The position numbers and the translations under genes were made by a program. The notes beneath the pieces are model-generated. The model had not been told where the DNA came from. It searched no databases and was given only the letters and a program-made list of their open reading frames with translations. This document shows positions 20,352 to 32,765 of a stretch of 64,000 bases of DNA, in pieces; within the stretch, counting starts at the first letter, position 1; each line of letters opens with the position of its first letter. This DNA comes from Planctomycetota bacterium (lineage in GTDB: Bacteria > Planctomycetota > UBA1135 > UBA2386). The DNA lies in NCBI GenBank assembly GCA_016794565.1, contig JAEUHQ010000091.1, positions 1 to 64,000 of the forward strand, read 5' to 3'.

Positions 20352-20882
20352 ATGAGCGACGACTGGAAGATCCATCGCGACCGCGCCGTGTGCGACAAGC
20401 CGGGGTGCCCGCTGCCGACGAGCCGTTCCTACTTCGCGGTTCTCGAGTGGCCGTCGTGCGTGCGCCGCGACCAGTGCGATGCGTGCTTCGCGGACTACGA
20501 ACGGCGCTGCCAGGGTGCCGAGCCGCCGATCTTCTGGCGCGCGCTGCGCAAGGTGTCGGGGAGCAAGGAGCCGGTGCTCGACCTCGCGTCGCTGCGCATG
20601 CTGTTCGACCGGCTCGGCACCGTCGACGACGACCGGGCCCGCAGTCTCCGCTACTTCTGCGCGCTGCTCCTGCTGAGGAAGCGCGTGCTCAAGATGGTGC
20701 GACCGCGGAATGCGGCCGAGGAGCGCGCCGATCTGGTGGTGGCCGATCCGAAGCAGAAGGAGATGGAGCCCATCTCCTTGTTCGCGCCCGCGCTCGACCT
20801 CAGCAATCTCGGCGCGATCAAGGACGAGCTGCTCGCCGCGATGGGTGACGACGCCGGCGCCCGCGCGGATGCTGCGCAGTGA
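20352..20882 (+). CDS. Conserved-looking cytoplasmic protein with an N-terminal cysteine cluster
   Basis: The 176-residue product has cysteines at 14, 19, 36, 42, 45 and 53 (CDKPGC, then C-x5-C-x2-C), a spacing that suits a zinc-binding fold. A helical middle (LASLRMLFDRLGTV, YFCALLLLRKRVLKMV) and an acidic-to-neutral tail follow. No family is recognised. The protein lacks a signal peptide although its upstream partner is a lipoprotein. A metal-binding adaptor or regulator is a guess only. Confidence 0.65.
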   Translation: MSDDWKIHRDRAVCDKPGCPLPTSRSYFAVLEWPSCVRRDQCDACFADYERRCQGAEPPIFWRALRKVSGSKEPVLDLASLRMLFDRLGTVDDDRARSLRYFCALLLLRKRVLKMVRPRNAAEERADLVVADPKQKEMEPISLFAPALDLSNLGAIKDELLAAMGDDAGARADAAQ

Positions 20883-20891
20883 CGCGGTCGT

Positions 20892-21479
20892 TCACCAGCT
20901 GAACGACCACTCGAACTCGTCGCCGGCTTCGAGTGCGCTGCGCACCGGAATCAGCAGGTAGGCGCGTTTCCCCTCGTGCGCTGCTTCGACGCCGCGGCCC
21001 GCAGGCCGCACGCCGGAGGCAAAGACCTCGCCCGGGACGCTGACCTCGACGCGCAACGTGTCGCCGATCTCGTTGGTGCGACCGCTCGGATCGTAGATCT
21101 TCGCCATCTTGCGTCGTTCGGCGACGTCGGGCACCAGAGCCTTCACCCAGGCGGTGTCCGGGCCGCGCTTCAGGAACACGCGCAGGCTCGGTCGTGCGTC
21201 GCCGAGTTCCGCGTCGAACCGGATTCCGCCGTCGCCGAGCTTCAGGGCCTTCACGTCGGCGAACGTACCCTGCGCGCACGTGACGCCGGCGCGGCCAGAC
21301 CACTGCACGCCCTGCGCCTCGGCCTCGGCCGCGCTGGCCGGGGGCGACGTGAGGCCGCGCATGGTGACCGTTCCGGACCCGTCCTTCTGCAGGGCGACGT
21401 GCACGCCGACGAGTTCGCCGCCGGAGCACGAGCAGAAGAACAGGGAAGCGAGGACGAGGACGGCGAGCAGTCGCTGCAT
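20892..21479 (-). CDS. Small lipoprotein, unknown function
   Basis: A 195-residue protein with an N-terminal signal MQRLLAVLVLASLFFCSCSGG; either Cys 16 or Cys 18 could be the lipidated residue. The mature part is beta-rich, beginning VGVHVALQKDGSGTVTMRGL and ending in AGDEFEWSFSW. This resembles the layout of DUF-type periplasmic lipoproteins that read as repeated beta hairpins. No family is recognised. It is convergent with the Cys-cluster gene (9 bp between stops), and its upstream region is shared with the dcw operator. Confidence 0.65.
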   Translation of the reverse strand: MQRLLAVLVLASLFFCSCSGGELVGVHVALQKDGSGTVTMRGLTSPPASAAEAEAQGVQWSGRAGVTCAQGTFADVKALKLGDGGIRFDAELGDARPSLRVFLKRGPDTAWVKALVPDVAERRKMAKIYDPSGRTNEIGDTLRVEVSVPGEVFASGVRPAGRGVEAAHEGKRAYLLIPVRSALEAGDEFEWSFSW

Positions 21480-21562
21480 GGTCGGGAATGGGTTGGCGGG
21501 GGCCGTGCGGCGCGCGATCGCACCGCGCGTCGAAGAAAATCGCGAAAGCACCGCGTGGAAAA

Positions 21563-21583
21563 CGCCCCCAGCCGGTGGGGGCG
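21563..21583. other. Strong hairpin in the dcw upstream region
   Basis: CGCCCCCA and TGGGGGCG form a perfect 8-bp stem with loop GCCGG. Read on the minus strand it is followed by TTTT, so it has terminator form in the leftward direction. It would block transcription running from the dcw promoter region toward the lipoprotein gene, or sit in that gene's leader. The rest of the 264-bp gap upstream of it (21480-21562) shows nothing recognisable. Confidence 0.4.
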
Positions 21584-21616
21584 AGCCGGTGGCGCCGACC
21601 CTACTGGAGCGGTCCC

Positions 21617-21625
21617 TGTGGATAA
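21617..21625 (-). promoter_or_regulatory. Perfect DnaA box (TTATCCACA on the minus strand)
   Basis: TGTGGATAA is the exact complement of the strongest consensus DnaA box. It forms the upstream edge of the GTGG array in front of mraZ. A 9-mer this AT-rich is uncommon in this GC-rich sequence. It could tie dcw expression to DnaA-ATP levels, but a single box may be coincidental. Confidence 0.55.
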
Positions 21626-21705
21626 AGTCGTGGTGCAGGGTGGGGCTGCAGTGGTGTTGTGTGGTGGAACGTGGTTGACCGGTGGTGTTCTGTGGTGTAG
21701 CGTGG
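21618..21705 (+). promoter_or_regulatory. Nine-unit GTGG array, probable MraZ operator
   Basis: GTGG occurs at 21618, 21630, 21640, 21651, 21661, 21671, 21682, 21692 and 21702. The intervals are 12, 10, 11, 10, 10, 11, 10 and 10 bp (mean 10.5), so all units lie on one face of the helix. Most read GTGGTG. Known MraZ operators are runs of about three to four TGGG- or GTGG-type units at about 10 bp spacing just before mraZ; this one is far longer. The proposed promoter lies inside the array, which fits autorepression by MraZ. Confidence 0.85.
21675..21703 (+). promoter_or_regulatory. Putative dcw promoter inside the operator array
   Basis: TTGACC and TAGCGT are separated by 17 bp, giving a start near 21710, about 33 nt before the mraZ ATG. 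The -35 is identical to that proposed for the ribosomal superoperon. Both boxes are interleaved with GTGG units, so bound MraZ would cover them. Confidence 0.6.
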
Positions 21706-21743
21706 ATCTCGACAAGAGCACAGAGGTCCCGGTTACGGGCGCG

Positions 21744-22220
21744 ATGGTTACCTACTTTGGCAGCTCGGAGCACGGCCTGGACGACAAGGGCAGGTTGATC
21801 CTGCCCGGTCGGATCCTGGACGAGATCCCGAAGAGCCACTGGAAGTTCCACCTGACCGCCGGGCTGGACCGCTGCCTGCTCCTGCACGATTCCGAAGGGT
21901 TCCGAGAACTCGTCGCCCGCATCGGTGGAGCCGTAGCTGGCAGCCGCGCCCACCGCACTCTGTGCCGGCGGTTTCTCGGTCACTCGGAGGAAGTCGTGCC
22001 TGACGGCAATCGGCGGATCCGCATCCCCGACCCGTTGCTCAAGTACGCGGGGATCGAAGTCGGTCAGGCAGTTGTGTTGGTCGGAACCGGTCGGGTCACC
22101 GAGATCTGGGCGGCGAACAAGATCGACACGGCGCTGGCCGAAGCGAGCCCCGAGGAAGAGTCGCTCTTTGCCAGTTTGATCAGTCCCACCAAGCCATCGA
22201 CGTCCTCGGGAGAAGCCTGA
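21744..22220 (+). CDS. mraZ: Transcriptional regulator MraZ
   Basis: The 158-residue protein has two MraZ half-domains of the AbrB-like fold, each with the DxxxR signature: DDKGRLILPGRI near residues 14-25 and DGNRRIRIPDPLL near 92-104. MraZ assembles into rings and binds direct repeats before its own gene to control the dcw operon. The length is slightly over the usual ~145 because of a Ser/Thr/Glu-rich tail. It is the first gene after the array and promoter, and the ATG gives the expected start (VTYFGSSEHGLDDKGR). Confidence 0.95.
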   Translation: MVTYFGSSEHGLDDKGRLILPGRILDEIPKSHWKFHLTAGLDRCLLLHDSEGFRELVARIGGAVAGSRAHRTLCRRFLGHSEEVVPDGNRRIRIPDPLLKYAGIEVGQAVVLVGTGRVTEIWAANKIDTALAEASPEEESLFASLISPTKPSTSSGEA

Positions 22221-22304: not shown

Positions 22305-23255
22305 ATGGACGATTCCGGCACGAAGAGTAGCAGCGACGGCGGTCACGAGGAAAGGCAACCCGTGCACCGCCCGGTGCTGCTCAGGGAGACGGTGGCGATT
22401 CTCGAGCTCCGCGAAGGACTCGTGGTCGTCGATGGAACGGTTGGCGCAGGCGGTCACGCGAGGGCAATCGTGGACGCCATCGCGCCGACGGGCGTGCTTG
22501 TGGGGCTCGATCGGGACAGCGAGATCCTGGCTGCTGCGCGAGCGGCGTTGGTCGGTACCGACGGCGATCGCGCAGAGGCCAGGGTCTCGCTGCACCATCT
22601 TCCCTTCTCGTGCATGCGGGAGGCGTTGGCGGCGGCCGGTCAGCCCCGCTGCGACCGCGTGCTGCTCGACCTCGGTGTCAGTTCCATGCAGCTGGATCGT
22701 GCAGAGCGCGGCTTCTCGTTCCGGGCCGACGGGCCTCTCGACATGCGGATGGACTCCGCAGCGCCGACTTCCGCGGCCGATTGGCTCGCGCGGACGGGGG
22801 AGCAGGACCTCGCGGACACGATCTACCGGCTCGGCGAAGAGCGTCATTCGCGCCGCATCGCGCGGGCGATCGTGGAAGCGCGTCGGCGCAAGCCGATCCG
22901 CCGCACGGCGCAACTGGCGCAGATCGTCCTCGATGCGATGCCGGCCGCCGCGCGGCACGGCCGCATCCACCCTGCGACGCGGACGTTCCAGGCGATCCGC
23001 ATGGTCGTGAACGACGAGCTCGGCGAGCTCGAGCGCGGCCTCTCGGCGGCGCTGGAGTGCCTCCGTCCCGGCGGTCGTCTTGCGGTGATCTCCTTCCACT
23101 CGCTCGAGGATCGTGTCGTGAAGCACTTCCTGCGCGCGCACTGCGACGTGGTGACGAAGAAGCCCGTCGAGGCCTCCGCCGCCGAGGTGCACGACAATCC
23201 GCGCGCCCGCAGCGCGAAGCTGCGTTGCGGCATCCGTCGGGAGGACGCGGCATGA
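22305..23255 (+). CDS. rsmH: 16S rRNA (cytosine(1402)-N4)-methyltransferase RsmH
   Basis: A 316-residue protein with the family blocks VHRPVLLRETVAIL, VVDGTVGAGGHARAIV (SAM-binding), VLLDLGVSSMQLDRAERGFS, LDMRMD, ATRTFQAIRMVVNDELGELE and ISFHSLEDRVVKHFL. RsmH methylates N4 of C1402 in the 16S decoding centre and is conserved as the second dcw gene. A GTG 45 bases upstream would add a Cys/Leu-rich piece, but the ATG was preferred because homologues begin near the HRPVLL block. It overlaps the next gene by 4 nt. Confidence 0.95.
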   Translation: MDDSGTKSSSDGGHEERQPVHRPVLLRETVAILELREGLVVVDGTVGAGGHARAIVDAIAPTGVLVGLDRDSEILAAARAALVGTDGDRAEARVSLHHLPFSCMREALAAAGQPRCDRVLLDLGVSSMQLDRAERGFSFRADGPLDMRMDSAAPTSAADWLARTGEQDLADTIYRLGEERHSRRIARAIVEARRRKPIRRTAQLAQIVLDAMPAAARHGRIHPATRTFQAIRMVVNDELGELERGLSAALECLRPGGRLAVISFHSLEDRVVKHFLRAHCDVVTKKPVEASAAEVHDNPRARSAKLRCGIRREDAA

Positions 23256-23506
23256 AGTGGTTGCTCGCGGGTCTCTTGTTCGCGCTCGCCGTGGCGCTCG
23301 CGATCGGTACCGCTGCGATCCGGGCCGAGAACGCGCACTGCCGACGCCGCGTCGACCAGGCGCTGCGCGACATCGACGATCGCCGCGTCGAGCTGACCCG
23401 TCTGTCGGTCGAGCGCCTCGAAGCGGCGACGCCCGAGAAGCTCGCCAAGGTGCACTGGCAACACCTGCGCGCCGAAGCACACAGGCGGCAGGAGTCGATC
23501 CAGTGA
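23252..23506 (+). CDS. ftsL: FtsL-like small division protein
   Basis: The 84-residue protein has a short cytoplasmic start, one membrane helix (LLAGLLFALAVALAIGTAAI) and a charged helical periplasmic part with likely coiled-coil character (RRVDQALRDIDDRRVELTRL). Size, topology and the location between rsmH and ftsI are those of FtsL, which recruits and activates the FtsW-FtsI pair. Sequence identity in this family is always low, so the call rests on topology and position. It overlaps both neighbours by 4 nt. Confidence 0.7.
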   Translation: MKWLLAGLLFALAVALAIGTAAIRAENAHCRRRVDQALRDIDDRRVELTRLSVERLEAATPEKLAKVHWQHLRAEAHRRQESIQ

Positions 23507-25542
23507 AGAAGGGCGAGCGGATCCGCCTGCGCTTCGTTTTCGGTGCACTGGGCTGTGTTCCTGTCTTCCTCGCGGGGTGGCTCGGCTGGCTCCAGGTGGG
23601 GCAGCGAGGCCAGATCCTGCGGGACGGCAAGGCGCCGCTGCGTCTCGTCGCGGCCACTGCGGATCGGCAGGCCGAGGCGGTCGAGGTGATGCCGCAGCCG
23701 CGCGGATCGATCGTCGATCGTCACGGTTCGGTGCTGGCGGTCGACTGCGAGGTCTACGACGTGCGGGCACGCATCTCCGTGCCGGCAAAGGAAGGCAAGA
23801 GCTGCGCTGCGCTGCGATCCTGGCTCGCGGAGGTCGCCGACGACTTCGCCCGCGCCATGGTCGCCGACACGTCCCTGTCGGACCGCGGTGAGTCGCAGCG
23901 CCTCTACCGCGAACGGTTCCGAGGGTCGCTCGCGAAGGCGTTCCGGACCGACCGCCTGCCCGCCGACGGGCCTGTTCCCGCCGATCAGCCCCGCGTCGCC
24001 GACGTTCGCATCGCGGGGGCCGTCGACGTGCTGGCCGTCGTCGACGCACTGCGTGAGGTCGGCGAGCGACGCGGGTCGGTGTCGATGCACTTCCTGCGAT
24101 CGTGGCAGCGTTCCTACCCCGAACGTGAATCCACGTACGGCATCGTCGGTCACGTCGACTCGCGCTGGACGGTGGACGAAGCCGGCGCCGTGCCGAAGCT
24201 GACGACGTTCGGCGCGTGCGGTCTCGAGGCGCTCGCAGCCCTGCTGCCCGACGAGGCCGTGACGCGGACTTCGTTGCGCGACGGCAAAGGGCTCACGTAC
24301 TTCCGCGCTCCCGTCGATGCGGTCGCGCGGCCCAACGTCGTGCATTCCACGCTCGACATCGACCTGCAGCGCATCGCGGTGCGCGAGCTGGCGGCGCAGG
24401 CGGAGGCGGGGGCGCGCGAGGGCAAAGTCACGATCCCCCAGTGGGGCGCCCTGATCCTCGTGGAGATGGCGACCGGCGACGTGCTGGCCGCGGCTTCGTG
24501 GCACCGCGACGGCAAGCACCCGGAGGCAGCGGCGTTCACGCCGTACCAGATGCTGTACGAGCCTGGTTCGATCGTGAAGCCGCTCGTGTTCGCCTACGCG
24601 CTCGAGGCCGGCGCGCTCGACTGGTCGCACTCCTTCGACTGCGCCCCCGGCAGCAGCGACTATCGCGAGCGCATCGGATCGGTCGGGAACCGCGTCGTCC
24701 GCGACGACCACGCGTGCGGTGTCCTGACGCCGCACGGCATCCTGGTCAACAGCTCGAACATCGGCGCTTCGTACGTCGGCCTGCAGCTCGAGCGCGAGCA
24801 GTGGCACGACTACATGCGCTTCTACGGGTTCGGCGCGCCGCTGAACCTGCACGTGCCGTTCGAGAGTCGCGGCGGTGCGGAGAAGTCGTTCGACCCGTCG
24901 ATCCCGGTGCGCTCCTTCCGTCGCAACAGCGCGATCTCGTTCAGCTTCGGCTACGAGATGCATGTCACCGCGATGCACATCGCGCGGGCCTACCTGCGCC
25001 TCTTCCGCGGCGCGTCCGCCGACCTGCGCTTGTGCCGCGGCGTCGACGTCGACGGCACCTGGCTGCCGGTGCCGACCGATCCCGGCGGCGGCGCGAAGTT
25101 CCGGCCCGACGTGGTGGACGCCGTTCGCGAGGCGATGGTCGACGTCGTGAGCGACGACCCGCACGCGACGGGCGCGGTGATGCACGGCCGCATGCTGAAG
25201 GAACTCGGCGTCGACCTGCACGGAGTCATCGCGGGCAAGACGGGCACCGCGGCGAGCCGCGTCGGTCTTCGCGGCGGCGGCAAGATGGAAGTCCGCAACG
25301 CGAGTTTCGTGGGATTCCTGCCGGCACACGACCCGCGTTGGCTCGCGGTGTGTGTGCTGCAGAAGGACGATCGTGCGCGGTTCTACGGCGGCAGCTATGC
25401 TGCGCCGCCGGCAGTCCGGCTGCTGCTCCAGACCCAGAGCCTGGAGGAGCGGCGGATGCTGCAGCGAGAACCGCAGGTCGGTGCGGGTGGTCAGACCCGG
25501 ACCGCGAGTGGTTCCCCTGGTGATTCAGGCTGGAGCCGGTAG
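23503..25542 (+). CDS. ftsI: Class B penicillin-binding protein (FtsI/PBP3 type) transpeptidase
   Basis: The 679-residue protein has an N-terminal membrane helix (~11-30) and a dimerisation/pedestal region beginning PQPRGSIVDRHGSVLAV. The transpeptidase domain has SxxK at 356-359 (EPGSIVKP), SxN at 417-419 (NSSNIG) and KTG at 579-581 (AGKTGT). It cross-links septal peptidoglycan, normally in complex with FtsW. An insert around 95-165 (charged, after the pedestal start) makes it longer than E. coli FtsI (588). GTG start, overlapping ftsL. Its intact active site shows that this organism makes conventional cross-linked peptidoglycan. Confidence 0.93.
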   Translation: MKKGERIRLRFVFGALGCVPVFLAGWLGWLQVGQRGQILRDGKAPLRLVAATADRQAEAVEVMPQPRGSIVDRHGSVLAVDCEVYDVRARISVPAKEGKSCAALRSWLAEVADDFARAMVADTSLSDRGESQRLYRERFRGSLAKAFRTDRLPADGPVPADQPRVADVRIAGAVDVLAVVDALREVGERRGSVSMHFLRSWQRSYPERESTYGIVGHVDSRWTVDEAGAVPKLTTFGACGLEALAALLPDEAVTRTSLRDGKGLTYFRAPVDAVARPNVVHSTLDIDLQRIAVRELAAQAEAGAREGKVTIPQWGALILVEMATGDVLAAASWHRDGKHPEAAAFTPYQMLYEPGSIVKPLVFAYALEAGALDWSHSFDCAPGSSDYRERIGSVGNRVVRDDHACGVLTPHGILVNSSNIGASYVGLQLEREQWHDYMRFYGFGAPLNLHVPFESRGGAEKSFDPSIPVRSFRRNSAISFSFGYEMHVTAMHIARAYLRLFRGASADLRLCRGVDVDGTWLPVPTDPGGGAKFRPDVVDAVREAMVDVVSDDPHATGAVMHGRMLKELGVDLHGVIAGKTGTAASRVGLRGGGKMEVRNASFVGFLPAHDPRWLAVCVLQKDDRARFYGGSYAAPPAVRLLLQTQSLEERRMLQREPQVGAGGQTRTASGSPGDSGWSR

Positions 25543-25571
25543 CTCCAGAGACAACGTCGGTAGGGCGGTAG

Positions 25572-27107
25572 ATGAGTGAGTTGGCATACCCATCCGGGCT
25601 TCCGTCCGGTCAGGGATACGTTCGCTTGCGTGAGCTGCGGGACTGTCTGCAGCCGCGTGAAGTCCTGCGCTGGCGCGACCTCGCGGTCGACGGCCTCGCG
25701 TTCCATTCCGCGGAAGTGCGCGCGGGCAACCTGTTCTTCGCCATCCGCGGCAGCAAGAACGACGGCATCGGCTATGCGCAGCAGGCCGTGGCGCGCGGCG
25801 CCGTCGCGATCGTCGCGGAAGAACCGATCCCGGGCACGGTGCCGGTGCTCGTCGTCGAGAACGCCCGCATCGCCCTCGCCGATGCGGCTCGTTACTACTA
25901 TCGCGATCCGTCGCGCGCACTGTCCGTCGTGGGCATCACCGGCACGAACGGGAAGACGACGACGGCGCACCTGATCCGGGCCTGCCTCCAGGCGGATCGG
26001 CGTCAGGTCGGTCTGCTCGGCACGATCGCCTACGAGTTCGGCGGTCGCCGCATCCCCGCGGCGAACACGACGCCGGACCCCGTCCGCATCCACGGCTACC
26101 TGCGCGAGATGGCGGATCGGTTCGCGAGCGCCTGTGTGATGGAGGTGTCGAGCCACAGCCTCGACCAGGATCGCGTCCGCGGCGTGAGCTTCGCGACCGC
26201 GGTGTTCACGAACCTCACCCAGGACCACCTCGACTACCACCACACGATGGCTGCGTACCGGCAGGCGAAGGCGCGGCTCTTCGCGGGCCTGCGGCCGGGT
26301 TCGACCGCGGTCCTGAACCGCGACGACGCGGCCTCGGTCGCGATGGCCGACGAACTCGCGACGGGCGTGCGCACGCTCTGGTACGGGCAGTCGCCCGACG
26401 CGGACATCCGCGCGGAGAACGTTCGGCCGGGCCCCGACGGCACTCGCTTCACGATGGTCATGCCGAACGGCCGCGTGGAGATGTTCCTCCGCCTCGTCGG
26501 CCGCCACAACGTCGAGAACGCGCTCGCGGCGGCCGCGGCGGCGCTCTCGCTCGGTGCGAGCGAGCTCACCGTCGCGAGCGCGCTCGAGGATGCTCGCGCG
26601 GTTCCGGGCCGGCTCGAACTCGTCGAGGCACCGATCGGTCGCGGCGGCCGCGTGCGCGCCTTCGTCGACTACGCGCACACTCCCGATGCCCTGGACAAGG
26701 TCTGCCGCACCCTCGCCGAACTCGGCGAGGGTCGGCTCCATGTCGTCTTCGGTTGCGGCGGCGATCGCGATCGCGGCAAGCGCGCGCCGATGGCGGCGGC
26801 GGTCGCGAAGTACGCGCAGTTCGCCTACGTGACGAGCGACAATCCGCGCAGCGAGGATCCGGAAGCCATCCTCGACGACATGGAGCCCGGATTCGCCGGG
26901 ACCGGTTGCGAACGGGTTCGCATCGTCGACCGCGCGGAAGCGATCCGGCGCGCCGTGACCGCCGCGCAGCCCGGCGACACGCTGCTCGTCGCAGGCAAGG
27001 GCCACGAGACCTACCAGGTGTTCAAGGACAGCGTCGTTCCATTCGACGATCGGCTCGAAGCCGCTCGTGCGCTCGCCGCGAAGGAGGCAGGATGGTTGCA
27101 CCGATGA
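25572..27107 (+). CDS. murE: UDP-N-acetylmuramoyl-L-alanyl-D-glutamate--2,6-diaminopimelate ligase
   Basis: A 511-residue Mur ligase: N-terminal UDP-binding domain, ATP loop GITGTNGKTTTA (from residue 121), central MEVSSHSLDQDRVRG and TNLTQDHLDYH, and C-terminal domain with FGCGGDRDRGKR and DNPR at 423-426. DNPR is the signature for meso-diaminopimelate rather than lysine, so the peptidoglycan is of the DAP type. The enzyme adds the third residue of the stem peptide in the cytoplasm. The ATG was chosen as the first in frame after the ftsI stop. Its 3' end overlaps murF by 16 nt. Confidence 0.95.
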   Translation: MSELAYPSGLPSGQGYVRLRELRDCLQPREVLRWRDLAVDGLAFHSAEVRAGNLFFAIRGSKNDGIGYAQQAVARGAVAIVAEEPIPGTVPVLVVENARIALADAARYYYRDPSRALSVVGITGTNGKTTTAHLIRACLQADRRQVGLLGTIAYEFGGRRIPAANTTPDPVRIHGYLREMADRFASACVMEVSSHSLDQDRVRGVSFATAVFTNLTQDHLDYHHTMAAYRQAKARLFAGLRPGSTAVLNRDDAASVAMADELATGVRTLWYGQSPDADIRAENVRPGPDGTRFTMVMPNGRVEMFLRLVGRHNVENALAAAAAALSLGASELTVASALEDARAVPGRLELVEAPIGRGGRVRAFVDYAHTPDALDKVCRTLAELGEGRLHVVFGCGGDRDRGKRAPMAAAVAKYAQFAYVTSDNPRSEDPEAILDDMEPGFAGTGCERVRIVDRAEAIRRAVTAAQPGDTLLVAGKGHETYQVFKDSVVPFDDRLEAARALAAKEAGWLHR

Positions 27108-28609
27108 ACCGCCGTGCAGAAGCCGGCTCCGACGAATCTCCGCGTCGCCGCGAACGCGCCGCGCGCGGCTCGTGGCTCACTCCCGCGGCCGTTGCGCGCG
27201 TGACCGGCGGCGAGGTGCAGCACCGGGGCGGCGCCGCCGCGACGATCACGACCGACTCGCGGGGTGACTGCTCGGGCAAGCTGTTCATCGCGCTGCGCGG
27301 TCCCAATCACGACGGCCACGCATTCGTCGCCGACGCGGTGCGCCGCGGTGCGGTCGGCCTGCTCGTCGATCGTGCGTGCGGTGAACTGCCGCCGCTCGAT
27401 CGGCTCGACGCGTTGCGCTCGAGCGCTCCGTTCGTGGTCCGCGTCGCCGATACCGGCCGCGCACTGCTCGACCTCGCCGGCGAACATCGGCGCCGCCACC
27501 GCGCGAAGGTCGTCGGCATCACGGGCTCGTGCGGCAAGACCTCGACGAAGGAGTGGCTCGGGGCGGTTCTCGCCGCGGCGATGCCGACCGTGCGTTCGCC
27601 GGGCTCGTTCAACAACCAGGTCGGCGTGCCGCTGACGCTGTTCGCGATCGATCCGCGGACGCGTGCGGCCGTCGTCGAGATCGGGACGAATGCTCCCGGC
27701 GAGATCGCGCAGCTGAGTTCGGTCGCCCGCCCGGACATCGGCATCGTGACCTGCGTCGCACCGGCTCACCTCGAAGGTCTCGGTTCGGTCGATGGCGTGG
27801 CGCGCGAGAAGGCGTCGCTGCCCGCGTCGTTGCCCGCGGACGGCCTGTGCATCCTGAACGGCGACGACGCGTCGTGCCGCGCGATGGCCGAAGTGACGAA
27901 AGCGGCGGTGCAGTTCACGAGCGTCTCGCGCGCGACGGATTGGTTCGCGACTGACGTTCGCTTCCACGCGCTCGGAACGACCTTCCTTCTGCAGGGCGAG
28001 CGCCCGGTGACCCTGCCGCGCCTCGGCACCCACAACGTGTACAACGCACTGGCGGTGATCGCCGCCGCGAGCCATCTCGGCGTCGCCGAGGAGGACGTGC
28101 TGGCCTCGCTCGCTGCCGTTCCGTCGGCGGCGCGGCGCCTCGAGCCGAAGTGCGCCGCTGGTGTCACGATCTTCGACGACACGTACAACATGAACCCTCA
28201 GTCGGCGCGCGCGGCCCTGCAGGCAGTCGCGGGGCTGTCGGGGCCGGGCCGACGGATCACCGTGTTCGGGGAGATGCTCGAACTCGGCGCTGCGAGCCAG
28301 GAGCTCCACCGTGCACTGGGGGCCGAAGTGCCGCGTACGAAGCAGGACCTGCTGGTGTGCGTCGGCGCCGGTGCGGCGCCCATCGCCGACGGCGCCGTCG
28401 CCGCGGGGATGCCGGCGCGTCTCGTGCATCGTGTCCCCGACATCGCCGCAGCGCTCGCGCTGCTGAAGCACGTGCTGCGCCCGACCGATCGACTGCTGTG
28501 CAAGGCGTCGCGCCGCGTCGCACTCGACAGCCTGGTCGACCAGCTGCTCGTCGAGCTCGAAGCCGCGCCGCCGAAGGACGCGAGCGCCGTCGCGATGGAG
28601 CACGGCTGA
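27092..28609 (+). CDS. murF: UDP-N-acetylmuramoyl-tripeptide--D-alanyl-D-alanine ligase
   Basis: The 505-residue Mur ligase has an ATP loop GITGSCGKTSTKEWL. It carries the MurF-typical SPGSFNNQVGVPLTL, VEIGTNAPGEIAQLS, LPRLGTHNVYNALAVIAAA, IFDDTYNMNPQSARAAL and FGEMLELG. It joins D-Ala-D-Ala to the tripeptide, the last cytoplasmic stem step. A Shine-Dalgarno AAGGAGG just before the first of two close ATGs favours the upstream start, overlapping the murE end. An N-terminal Arg-rich leader of about 25 residues is longer than usual. It ends 4 nt before mraY. Confidence 0.93.
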   Translation: MVAPMNRRAEAGSDESPRRRERAARGSWLTPAAVARVTGGEVQHRGGAAATITTDSRGDCSGKLFIALRGPNHDGHAFVADAVRRGAVGLLVDRACGELPPLDRLDALRSSAPFVVRVADTGRALLDLAGEHRRRHRAKVVGITGSCGKTSTKEWLGAVLAAAMPTVRSPGSFNNQVGVPLTLFAIDPRTRAAVVEIGTNAPGEIAQLSSVARPDIGIVTCVAPAHLEGLGSVDGVAREKASLPASLPADGLCILNGDDASCRAMAEVTKAAVQFTSVSRATDWFATDVRFHALGTTFLLQGERPVTLPRLGTHNVYNALAVIAAASHLGVAEEDVLASLAAVPSAARRLEPKCAAGVTIFDDTYNMNPQSARAALQAVAGLSGPGRRITVFGEMLELGAASQELHRALGAEVPRTKQDLLVCVGAGAAPIADGAVAAGMPARLVHRVPDIAAALALLKHVLRPTDRLLCKASRRVALDSLVDQLLVELEAAPPKDASAVAMEHG

Positions 28610-28613
28610 TCGC

Positions 28614-29732
28614 ATGTTCCACTGGCTCGCACCCTGGCTGTTCTCGGAGGACATGGGCCGCTTGCTCGGCTACATCTCCGTGCGCGCAGCCGGGGCGGCG
28701 GTCACCGCGTTCCTCCTGGCGATCGTCTTCGGGCCGCGTGTGATCGCGTGGCTCGGTCGGCAGGGGATCGGCGAACGGGTGGACGGCACGGGGTCGAAGA
28801 CGCTCGACGAACTGCACGGCCACAAGAAGGGCACGCCGACGATGGGCGGCCTCTTCATCGTCGCCGCGATCCTGATCGCGTGCGTGTGCTGGCTGCGCTT
28901 CGACGGCCCGAATCGCTACTCGTGGCCCGGCGTCGTGCTCGTCGCCGGCTTCGCCGCCGTCGGTTTCTGGGACGACTGGGTGAAGCTGCACAACCCGAAG
29001 AAGCGCGGCATCAGCAAGCGCGAGAAGCAGGTCGCTCTCACGCTCGTCGCGCTGGCCGTAGCCGTGTGGCTGTTGGTGCCCGCCGGTCTGCAGTCGGCGC
29101 TCGGCGGTCCGCACCTGTACGTGCCGTTCGCGAAGGACTTCTCGATCGACCTCGGCATCGCGTTCGGCATTCCGTTCCTGGTCGTGGCCGTGCTCGTGCT
29201 CACGGGCGCGGCGAACGCGGTCAACCTGACCGACGGCATGGACGGTCTCGCGACGGGCTGCATCGCCAGCGCGGCGATCGCCTACGCGGTGATCACGTAC
29301 GCCGTCGGACGCGTCGACTGGTCGTCGTACCTGCTCGTGCCGCACGTGGCGGGCGCGGGTGAAATGACCGTGCTGATGGGGGCGCTGCTCGGGGGCGCCC
29401 TCGGCTTCCTGTGGTTCAACGCGGCGCCGGCGCTCGTGTTCATGGGCGACGTCGGCAGCCTGGGCCTCGGTGGCGCGCTCGGCTACGCGGCGATCGTGAG
29501 TCGCACCGAACTCGTCCTGCTGGTCGTCGGTGGCGTGTTCGTCGCCGAGGCTCTCTCCGTCATCCTGCAGGTGGCGTCGTTCAAGCTGCGTGGCAAGCGG
29601 ATCTTCCGCTGTGCGCCGCTGCACCATCACTTCGAGTTCGGCGGCATGCCCGAGACGCGCGTCGTCGTGCGGACATGGGTCGTGTCGGCCCTCCTCGCCC
29701 TGTGCAGCCTCGCGCTGTTCAAGGTGCGCTGA
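28614..29732 (+). CDS. mraY: Phospho-N-acetylmuramoyl-pentapeptide transferase
   Basis: A 372-residue polytopic membrane enzyme with about ten helices. Signature motifs are HGHKKGTPTMGG near residue 64, the catalytic aspartates in GFWDDWVK and NLTDGMDGLATG, and the HHH loop APLHHHFEFGG near the end. It transfers phospho-MurNAc-pentapeptide to undecaprenyl phosphate, giving lipid I. Its stop shares a base with the ftsW ATG. In most bacteria murD comes next; here it is replaced directly by ftsW. Confidence 0.96.
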   Translation: MFHWLAPWLFSEDMGRLLGYISVRAAGAAVTAFLLAIVFGPRVIAWLGRQGIGERVDGTGSKTLDELHGHKKGTPTMGGLFIVAAILIACVCWLRFDGPNRYSWPGVVLVAGFAAVGFWDDWVKLHNPKKRGISKREKQVALTLVALAVAVWLLVPAGLQSALGGPHLYVPFAKDFSIDLGIAFGIPFLVVAVLVLTGAANAVNLTDGMDGLATGCIASAAIAYAVITYAVGRVDWSSYLLVPHVAGAGEMTVLMGALLGGALGFLWFNAAPALVFMGDVGSLGLGGALGYAAIVSRTELVLLVVGGVFVAEALSVILQVASFKLRGKRIFRCAPLHHHFEFGGMPETRVVVRTWVVSALLALCSLALFKVR

Positions 29733-30874
29733 TGACCGCGGTGCCACACACTCGTGACGCGGTCCCGACCGCGCGCTCGAACCACCTGCGCGAACTGGAC
29801 TGGCTCATGCTGGTCACGGTCGCGCTCTGCTGCCTCGGGCTCGTGATGGCGGTGTCCGTTCGCGGCTCGCAGATCGACGTCGGGCCGATGGTCGTGATGA
29901 AGCAGCAGGGCACGAAGCTGCTCGTGGGTGTCGTCGCGTTCCTGGTCGCGGCGCTCGTGCCGATGCAGTGGGTGCGCCGCGCGGCGATCCCGCTGTTCCT
30001 CGCCGCCACGGCGTGCTGCCTGCTCGTGCCGCTCCTCGGTACCGAGGTGAAGGGCGCTGCGCGGTGGATCCGCGTCGCTGGTTACCAGTTCCAGCCCGTC
30101 GAGCCAGCACGCTTCTTCATGGTGATCGCCGTGTCGTGGATGCTGGCGCGCGCCGGGAGCGGCCTGCGCAGCTTCCGGCGCGGGTTCCTGCCGTCGATCG
30201 GTTGCGCCGCGTTGCTGGCCGGCGCGCTGCTCCTTCAGCCCGACCACGGGAACGCGCTGATCGTGCTGGCGCTGGCGAGCTGCCTCTCGCTGGTCGCCGG
30301 CGTGCGCTTCCTGCACTTCATGCCCTTTGCCGCGGCCGGCCTCGCAGGGTTCGCGATGCTCGCGGCGCGGCACGACTACGTGCGCGGCCGCCTCACCGAG
30401 TTCCTGCAGACGCGTCCTGACAGCCAGGTCGGCCTCGGCCTGATCGCGGTCGGCTCCGGCGGACTCACGGGACGCGGCCTCGGTCAGGGGTGGATGAAGA
30501 TGGACTTCGTGCCGGAGGCCCACAACGACTTCGTGTTCGCGATCATCGCGGAGGAGTTCGGCTTCCTCGGCTCGCTCTTCGTGCTCGCTGCATTCACGGT
30601 GTTCGGCGTGGTCGCGTACCGGCTCGTCTGCAAAGTGAAGGATCCGTTCCTTCGGTACCTGGTGTGCGGCTACGCTCTGATGATCTGCATGCAAGCGGCT
30701 GCGAACCTGCTCGTGGTCAGCGGGTGGGCTCCGGCCAAGGGCATCGACCTGCCGTTCGTCAGTACGGGCGGCACCAGTCTGATGTTCTGTCTCGCAGCGG
30801 TCGGTCTGATCGGCAACGCCGCGCGGACCGACAGCGGCGGGGCGTTCCTCGAACAAGAATCCGCGGTCAACTGA
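29732..30874 (+). CDS. ftsW: SEDS-family peptidoglycan glycosyltransferase FtsW
   Basis: The 380-residue protein has around ten membrane helices and SEDS signatures: RWIRVAGYQFQPVEPARF, LLLQPDHGNALIVLA, FVPEAHNDFVFAIIAEEFG and PFVSTGGTSLM. SEDS proteins polymerise glycan strands from lipid II together with a class B PBP, which is encoded four genes upstream. Family assignment to FtsW rather than RodA rests on dcw location. Start overlaps the mraY stop (TGATG), so it is translationally coupled to lipid I synthesis. Confidence 0.93.
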   Translation: MTAVPHTRDAVPTARSNHLRELDWLMLVTVALCCLGLVMAVSVRGSQIDVGPMVVMKQQGTKLLVGVVAFLVAALVPMQWVRRAAIPLFLAATACCLLVPLLGTEVKGAARWIRVAGYQFQPVEPARFFMVIAVSWMLARAGSGLRSFRRGFLPSIGCAALLAGALLLQPDHGNALIVLALASCLSLVAGVRFLHFMPFAAAGLAGFAMLAARHDYVRGRLTEFLQTRPDSQVGLGLIAVGSGGLTGRGLGQGWMKMDFVPEAHNDFVFAIIAEEFGFLGSLFVLAAFTVFGVVAYRLVCKVKDPFLRYLVCGYALMICMQAAANLLVVSGWAPAKGIDLPFVSTGGTSLMFCLAAVGLIGNAARTDSGGAFLEQESAVN

Positions 30875-30892
30875 AAGCTCTGGGAGGGTGTG

Positions 30893-31687
30893 ATGGGCCA
30901 GCTCGAGAAGTACGGCCTCTACGTTCTGTGTCTCGTGATCTTCCTGATCCTCGGCGTCACCATCTGGGGCGGCGGGGACCTTCAACAACCGCCGCGCCGC
31001 GGCAACGCGCCGGCTGCGAGTTCGGAGCTGAACGCGAATCCGCGCACGGCCCACGCTGGTGCGCCGAGCGGTCCGCTCGGAAACACCGTGTCGCCGGTCG
31101 GTGAGCGTACGCCGCCCCCGGTCGCGAGCCTCGACAGCCTGCTCGAACGGGTTCCGCCGCCCTCGACGAAGCCGCCGGTGAAGGTCGACAAGGAGAAGGT
31201 CGATCCGAAGACCGTCGAGCCGAAGGCGATCGATCCAGGCGCCGCCGCGAAGCCGCCGACCGGCTCGCCGAAGCCCGCGGCGGAGACGGTGCGTCCGGTC
31301 CACAAGGTCGCGGCGGGGGACACCTTCGACAGCATCGCGAGGGAGAAGCTCGGCTCGGCGTCCCTGCGCACCGAGATCGCACGGCTCAACCCGAAGGTCG
31401 AACCGAGCCGCATGAAGCCGGGCGTCGAACTGCAGCTTCCGACGGCGACGGAGCTGGCCGCGCTGAGGAAGGGCAAGGACGACGTGAAGGTGGCCGATGC
31501 GTCGTCGGCGAAGAAGCCCTCGGTCGGCGACGGCACCTACACGATCGAGAAGGGTGACACGTTTGCCTCCATCGCGCGCAAGAAGCTCGGTTCGGCGAAG
31601 CGCGTGAACGAGCTGCTCGACGCGAATCCGAACCTCGATCCGCTGCGCCTGCGCGAAGGCACCACCATCCGGCTGCCCAAGAACTGA
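30893..31687 (+). CDS. Membrane-anchored protein with two LysM domains, within the dcw cluster
   Basis: A 264-residue protein: N-terminal membrane helix (YGLYVLCLVIFLILGVTIWG), a long Pro/Lys/Ala-rich linker, then two LysM modules. The first starts HKVAAGDTFDSIAREKLGS (~137-185) and the second YTIEKGDTFASIARKKLGS (~215-263); each ends in an xLxLP-type strand. LysM binds N-acetylglucosamine-containing glycans, so the protein probably tethers the inner membrane to nascent septal peptidoglycan. GGGAGG 5 nt before the ATG marks the start. It occupies the slot between ftsW and murG, where no gene usually lies. Confidence 0.88.
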   Translation: MGQLEKYGLYVLCLVIFLILGVTIWGGGDLQQPPRRGNAPAASSELNANPRTAHAGAPSGPLGNTVSPVGERTPPPVASLDSLLERVPPPSTKPPVKVDKEKVDPKTVEPKAIDPGAAAKPPTGSPKPAAETVRPVHKVAAGDTFDSIAREKLGSASLRTEIARLNPKVEPSRMKPGVELQLPTATELAALRKGKDDVKVADASSAKKPSVGDGTYTIEKGDTFASIARKKLGSAKRVNELLDANPNLDPLRLREGTTIRLPKN

Positions 31688-31691
31688 CGCG

Positions 31692-32765
31692 ATGGTGCGT
31701 CGCGTCTGCCTCGTCAGTGGTGGCACCGGCGGCCACCTCATGCCCGCCCTCGTGCTCGCTCGCGCGTTGCGCGAACGCGGCCACGAGGCGTTGCTCGTCA
31801 CCGAGGGTCGCGAGGTCGAGCGCGAACTGCTGCGCCGTGAGCTGCCCGACATCGTCGAGGAGAACCTGCCGTCCGTCAGTGGCCGTTTCTCGCTGCCGTG
31901 GTGGCTCGCGAAGGCGACCGTCAGTGCACGCCGCATGCTGCGGCGCGAGCGGGTCGACTGCGTCGTCAGTACAGGGGGGCGACCGTCTCTGCCCGTGGGC
32001 CTCGCGGCGAAGAGCCTCGGTGTGCCGTTGTTCCTCCTGGAGCAGAATGCGGTGACCGGGCGCGTGAACCGTTGGCTCTCGCCGCTCGCGGCCCGGATCT
32101 ACCATGGCTTGCCGGCCATCGAACCGCTCGGGCGACGTGCACTGGTCACGGGGACGCCGCTTCGCCCCCAGTTCGCGCGCGTCGAACGCGCGGCGTGCCG
32201 TGACGCGCTCGGGCTGCCGGGTGACGGGCTCGTCGTGCTCGTCACGGGAGGCAGTCAGGGTGCGCGTGTCCTGAACGAGACGGTGCCGGCGGCGCTGGCG
32301 GGCCTGACGACGCCCCTCCACGTGCTGCATCTCGCCGGCATCGGTCGCGACGAGGAAGTGAGGCGGCGCTACGCGGTGTCAGATCGAATCGTTGCGCAGG
32401 TGCGTCCGGTCGCACTCGACATGGACCGCATGTTCGGCGCCGCCGATCTCGTGGTCTGCCGCGGCGGCGGCACCACGGTGGCCGAGCTGACTGCCGCCGG
32501 TCGACCCGCCGTGATCGTTCCCTACCCGCACCACAAGGATCGGCAGCAGCTGCGCAACGCCGAGGTCCTCGTGCGCGCGGGCGCGGCCATCGTCGTGGAG
32601 GAGAAGGACCTCGACCTCGCGCGGTTCGCGACCCTCCTCGGCGACCTGTTGCGCGATCGCGGTCGGCTCGAGGCGATGGGCGCCGCCGCGGCCGGGCTTC
32701 GCCGCAGTGATCCGACCGGCACGATCCTGCGCGACATGGGGCTCTCGGCGGAGGCGGCGCGATGA
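31692..32765 (+). CDS. murG: UDP-GlcNAc:lipid I N-acetylglucosaminyltransferase
   Basis: A 357-residue GT28-family enzyme with GGTGGHLMPALVLARAL at the N terminus, LLEQNAVTGRVNRWLSPLA, VTGGSQGARVLNE and the UDP-GlcNAc-binding block CRGGGTTVAELTAAGRPAVI followed by PYPHHKDRQQLRNAEVL. It converts lipid I to lipid II at the cytoplasmic face of the membrane. It starts 4 nt after the LysM gene stop and overlaps murC by 4 nt. Length and motif order are normal. Confidence 0.95.
   Translation: MVRRVCLVSGGTGGHLMPALVLARALRERGHEALLVTEGREVERELLRRELPDIVEENLPSVSGRFSLPWWLAKATVSARRMLRRERVDCVVSTGGRPSLPVGLAAKSLGVPLFLLEQNAVTGRVNRWLSPLAARIYHGLPAIEPLGRRALVTGTPLRPQFARVERAACRDALGLPGDGLVVLVTGGSQGARVLNETVPAALAGLTTPLHVLHLAGIGRDEEVRRRYAVSDRIVAQVRPVALDMDRMFGAADLVVCRGGGTTVAELTAAGRPAVIVPYPHHKDRQQLRNAEVLVRAGAAIVVEEKDLDLARFATLLGDLLRDRGRLEAMGAAAAGLRRSDPTGTILRDMGLSAEAAR

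Follow-up and report, generated by a model that had tools for sequence, protein, structure and literature searches.

How MraZ, among the most widespread of bacterial regulators, recognizes the row of short boxes in front of its own gene is a question of geometry: a ring-shaped protein has to read a linear array, and this is only now visible in four-box structures. In the planctomycete DNA studied here, mraZ is preceded by nine GTGG words. We asked what kind of site this array is, how much of it relatives share and how MraZ might use it. The window, by which we mean the whole 64,000-nucleotide stretch that was analyzed, carries mraZ as the first gene of a dcw cluster, and the answer bears on how planctomycetes that lack ftsZ control a cluster used elsewhere for FtsZ-based division. 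This host was described in an earlier note as being without ftsZ; in keeping with that, no FtsZ/tubulin domain was found in the 5.07-Mb genome assembly, which is 92.8% complete.

The GTGG array and the gene behind it

The earlier note, made from the letters of the window, reported nine GTGG units with successive steps of 12, 10, 11, 10, 10, 11, 10 and 10 bp, and direct reading of the sequence confirmed both the units and the steps (span 21618-21705, mean step 10.5 bp; Table 1). Units 2 to 9 are strictly 10-11 bp apart, while unit 1 stands 12 bp from its neighbor, about 1.5 bp from a whole turn. One more GTGG, the tenth, stands at 21664; it overlaps unit 5 and lies off the lattice. The array occupies part of the 263 bp of intergenic DNA (21481-21743) that separate mraZ from a divergent ORF, which puts it directly 5' of the first dcw gene. 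Measured from the -35 hexamer, it extends from -57 to +27. When the array is compared with itself at a shift of 31 bp, the segment holding units 4-6 matches the one holding units 7-9 at 21 of 24 positions, and units 8 and 9 may derive from a 31-bp duplication inside the array.

Table 1. Features of the mraZ region. Slots are given in bp relative to the -35 hexamer; fractions count clade-A genomes with the unit at that slot (tolerance 1 bp).
Feature	Positions	Strand	Description
Divergent ORF	20892..21480	-	no Pfam match; lipoprotein-like start MQRLLAVLVLASLFFCSCSG
GTGG unit 1	21618..21621	+	slot -57; 12 bp from unit 2; lineage-specific
GTGG unit 2	21630..21633	+	slot -45, conserved core; GTGG 18/25, GTGG or GGGG 22/25
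GTGG unit 3	21640..21643	+	slot -35, conserved core; exact 20/25
GTGG unit 4	21651..21654	+	slot -24/-25, conserved core; exact 14/25, with GGGG 19/25
Possible duplication, copy 1	21651..21674	+	21/24 identity to 21682-21705
GTGG unit 5	21661..21664	+	slot -14, conserved core; exact 24/25
GTGG unit 6	21671..21674	+	slot -4, adjoins -35 hexamer; exact 17/25; GG invariant
-35 hexamer TTGACC	21675..21680	+	TTGA[CT] at the same place in 25/25 clade-A genomes
GTGG unit 7	21682..21685	+	slot +6/+7, conserved core; exact 18/25
Possible duplication, copy 2	21682..21705	+	21/24 identity to 21651-21674
GTGG unit 8	21692..21695	+	slot +16/+17, in the -35/-10 spacer; exact 4/25
-10 hexamer TAGCGT	21698..21703	+	TANNNT at +22 or +23 in 25/25 clade-A genomes
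GTGG unit 9	21702..21705	+	slot +26/+27, overlaps end of -10; exact 3/25
mraZ	21744..22220	+	158 aa; two MraZ (PF02381) halves, both DxxxR motifs, C-terminal tail EExxLFASL
rsmH/mraW	22305..23255	+	second dcw gene; PF01795, 332 bits
Remaining examined dcw cluster	23257..32765	+	transpeptidase PBP, two Mur ligases, mraY, FtsW/RodA-type gene, LysM protein, murG

Could such a row arise by chance, or through the low complexity of GC-rich DNA? Genomes of this kind contain GTGG often, and a pattern search found three-unit phased GTGG at three other sites in this one (the reversed control pattern, in the same type of search, occurs at six). However, the longest chain elsewhere in the window, on both strands, has two units. 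Forty order-3 Markov simulations of 64 kb gave a longest chain of three, and dinucleotide shuffling, repeated 20,000 times for the intergenic region and likewise for the array alone, gave five. Nine units are thus far beyond what these models reach, and the slots are conserved in relatives, as described below; we regard chance as refuted.

The downstream gene encodes MraZ, by family and by fold. Its two DxxxR motifs (D13/R17 and D87/R91) are invariant in 58 sequences, and an AlphaFold model of the single chain has a pLDDT of 89. At E <= 0.001 the PDB matches of this model are MraZ chains only, including 9r4j and 9sz7; the PDB title of the latter names MraZ of M. genitalium with the four boxes of its promoter. 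Upstream of mraZ its frame meets no stop for about 288 codons (20880-21743) and so runs through the operator, probably an effect of high G+C content. A longer mraZ beginning in this in-frame extension was rejected because relatives share the start M[VA]TYFGSSEH. Farther along the dcw cluster, a gene for a LysM-domain protein (30890-31687) sits between the ftsW-type gene and murG.

Conservation of the lattice in two clades

Among 61 genomes of the family and order, mraZ was found in 58. Twenty-five family genomes, the window genome and 24 relatives, group together in the MraZ tree (support 100/99) as what we call clade A, and we anchored their upstream regions on the -35 hexamer. GTGG recurs in these regions at six slots (-45, -35, -25, -14, -4 and +6), at the frequencies listed in Table 1. 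Within the lattice, conservation is strong at the GG pairs, several of which are invariant, and most spacer positions are nearly random; the strongest period is 10.25-10.5 bp. The slots of units 1, 8 and 9, in turn, are kept in only 3-7 of the 25 genomes. The window genome has the highest count of exact units, nine, and the runner-up in the clade has eight. Not every relative reaches six: several have only four or five good units, and a count of six or more is thus no strict requirement. Aligning the relatives' upstream regions, as the earlier note had proposed, therefore gave a divided answer: helical phase is kept, and the number nine is not. Judged by this alignment, the family core is six units, and nine is specific to the lineage of the window genome.

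The alignment also places the array on a promoter. Because the two hexamers of Table 1 recur as TTGA[CT] and TANNNT in every clade-A genome, the operator straddles a promoter. The -10 hexamer of the window itself is weak, and a simple consensus scan did not call the window promoter.

We also considered whether the nine units form three triads with 11-bp joints. The steps in relatives run 10, 10, 11, 10, 10, and the 11-bp steps of the window are placed elsewhere. We make no such claim, because a mean step near 10.4 bp forces a mixture of 10- and 11-bp steps anyway.

A second arrangement occurs in seven other family genomes (clade B; MraZ-tree support 92/95) and in G007, a lone long branch (loci L028-L032 and L041-L043). 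Here the operator upstream of mraZ is split into two blocks. The upstream block has slots at approximately -69, -58, -47 and -37, some of them empty in some genomes, and the downstream block has slots at +5, +15 and +26, with no units between the two. From -37 to +5 the distance is 42 bp, or four turns, in 7/7 clade-B genomes, and 43 bp in G007; the -37 slot reads GGGG in two genomes and the +5 slot GTCG in one. Mean identity across the 42-bp gap is 39%, compared with 26% in shuffled sequences, and the distance to the ATG varies from 82 to 150. The length of the gap is thus kept where its sequence is not. Since the clade-B genomes are related, this counts as one or two preserved evolutionary events and not as seven.

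Counted from the -35 hexamer, clades A and B place their slots on almost one and the same lattice. Alternatively, clade B may have a separate promoter further upstream, served by an operator of its own. The conserved phase, including that across the 42-bp gap, supports a model in which a large, phase-locked MraZ assembly would cover the promoter. The earlier note suggested that nine units could wrap or bridge one or more MraZ rings and so form a dose-sensing switch; the kept phase is consistent with bridging without proving it, and dose sensing is conjecture. The six-slot core, the nine filled slots and the sister form with its four-turn gap amount to a natural spacing experiment, and the operator variants of the two clades make one-ring, two-ring and wrapping models directly testable.

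Comparison with other MraZ operators

How unusual is the array? We scored loci by the longest exact GTGG chain with steps of 9-12 bp. In 70 other planctomycete loci sampled across the phylum the chain has at most four units, and at most three where the order was sampled beyond the family (29 loci); among 67 loci from other phyla, three is the mode and five the maximum, reached at one locus. These counts bear out the earlier note's view of an unusually long operator. A five-unit phased pattern is present in 8 of 34 family genomes, at mraZ every time and nowhere else. When 392 genomes sampled evenly across the phylum were searched for it, the pattern turned up in the window genome and in three others, whose matches look, by their sequence, like short tandem repeats. 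One match to the phased pattern in another planctomycete genome, G089:C38:67143-67231 (L225 and following), is a long tandem repeat of the five bases GTGGT.

Placement differs as well. Of 24 other planctomycete loci with a recognizable promoter, 22 have all of their units downstream of the -10 hexamer, whereas clade-A units lie upstream of or across the -35. The operator of E. coli MG1655 likewise consists of same-strand GTGG direct repeats in 10-bp steps directly upstream of mraZ, but it has three exact units (the fourth slot is GGGG) in place of nine. By its sequence it lies downstream of the -10, at the transcription start, which PMC7761207 cites as 38 bp before mraZ; the window array lies mostly upstream of or across the -35. 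In Burkholderia cenocepacia, tandem repeats also recur at 10 bp, and EMSA shows MraZ binding to the operator fragment; in contrast to the window, there are four repeats, which follow the -10 and cover the start of transcription (PMC7761207). The Mycoplasma operator, with the consensus (AAAGTGKN3)3 (PMC5282649), shares the GTG core, a spacing of about one helical turn per unit, the position upstream of mraZ and a homologous protein fold, but its three to four boxes have a longer, AT-rich unit; PDB entries 9sz7 and 9r4j describe cryo-EM structures of Mycoplasma MraZ with a 4-box promoter. Other mraZ operators of Planctomycetota and Actinobacteria have GTGG at 10 bp upstream of the gene as well, and differ in a modal count of two to three units.

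The window array has what these operators share, namely direct repeats with a GTGG or GTG core about one turn apart, conserved upstream of mraZ in relatives, and it is almost certainly an MraZ operator. In its position, core word, spacing and conservation, the sequence agrees with the operator type that the earlier note had assigned. By every defining feature we tested the array belongs to this type, and it departs from the described cases in two features that are typical but not defining. The usual count is three to four units, against nine in the window and six in the family core, and the usual placement, as in E. coli and Burkholderia, is downstream of the -10 over the start. The type of operator is thus known already; what is new is the number and placement of its units. 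As far as these comparisons of sequence go, the control site in front of mraZ has evolved in this planctomycete family into an unusually long one, phased with the helix.

A predicted repressing assembly and its alternatives

We propose that the array is an autoregulatory MraZ operator in which a long lattice would engage more than one ring, or a single ring on distorted or wrapped DNA, block the -35 and repress the dcw cluster; we give this reading a probability of roughly two in three. One MraZ subunit would dock at each GTGG word, and with one docking word every 10-11 bp the sites would come to lie on one face of the DNA. The family lattice would comprise about ten slots over about 95-100 bp, upstream of and across the -35, of which the window genome fills nine. 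Two or more rings, or a single ring on deformed or wrapped DNA, would then cover about 60-95 bp including the -35, and such an assembly, held in register, would keep RNA polymerase off that hexamer, so that MraZ would repress itself and the cluster behind it. More than one ring probably sits on the promoter, and MraZ probably acts here as a repressor; in M. genitalium, deletion of mraZ raises expression of the cluster (PMC8475190). The title of PDB 9sz7 and the operator descriptions in PMC7761207 and PMC5282649 give three to four boxes, so occupancy of nine units by MraZ is an extrapolation.

The most serious competitor, which we consider unlikely, is an MraZ operator read by a single ring that uses only three to six of the units, the outer three being by-products of duplication or drift that add little. 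The sparse retention of units 1, 8 and 9 in clade A, the internal match at a 31-bp shift and the three to four units of known operators (the E. coli sequence; PMC7761207; PMC5282649) all fit this account. Drift sits less well with the outer units themselves: all three are exact GTGG, units 8 and 9 hold the 10-11 bp phase, and clade B fills the equivalent downstream slots at +15 and +26. Somewhat less probable again is that the operator activates, with rings upstream of the -35 touching RNA polymerase. This idea retains some weight because most units lie upstream: five of the six conserved slots precede the -35 hexamer, whereas in the E. coli type the units follow the -10, and PMC7761207 cites MraZ as an activator in mycoplasmas. 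However, the sixth conserved unit directly follows the -35 and units 8 and 9 extend to the -10; protein bound there should stand in the way of the polymerase. The M. genitalium deletion also points away from activation.

Control of mraZ by a G-quadruplex has been claimed for Staphylococcus aureus (PMC11796246), and the plus strand here is rich in GG pairs, with two 2-tier motifs. Yet the region 21481-21743 has no motif of four GGG tracts, and the best 25-mer G4Hunter value is 1.36 in the array, compared with 2.0 elsewhere in the window. Moreover, a quadruplex has no need of the 10.5-bp spacing that dozens of genomes retain, even over a gap of 42 bp. A G-rich strand folding in this way is thus very improbable as the explanation.

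We tentatively entertain a more specific arrangement, at less than even odds. The family would share a single, fixed helical lattice with some ten slots, and two MraZ rings, or one larger, wrapped ring, would bind it in register as a phase-locked clamp on the promoter. On the same joint reading, clade A would fill a contiguous six slots, clade B four plus three and the window genome nine, and the middle slots of clade B would be empty yet kept at exactly four turns.

A C-terminal tail might take part. The motif EExxLFASL..P..PS (residues 133-158) is found, with small variations, in all 25 clade-A MraZ proteins and is absent from clade B, and it is modeled as a helix at residues 136-146. A role in ring-ring contact would be a guess, and the tail possibly helps the promoter clamp. 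The window MraZ had no relative that we could find in the viral collection. Within the same order, four genomes (G044, G047, G053 and G056) carry two mraZ-like genes each.
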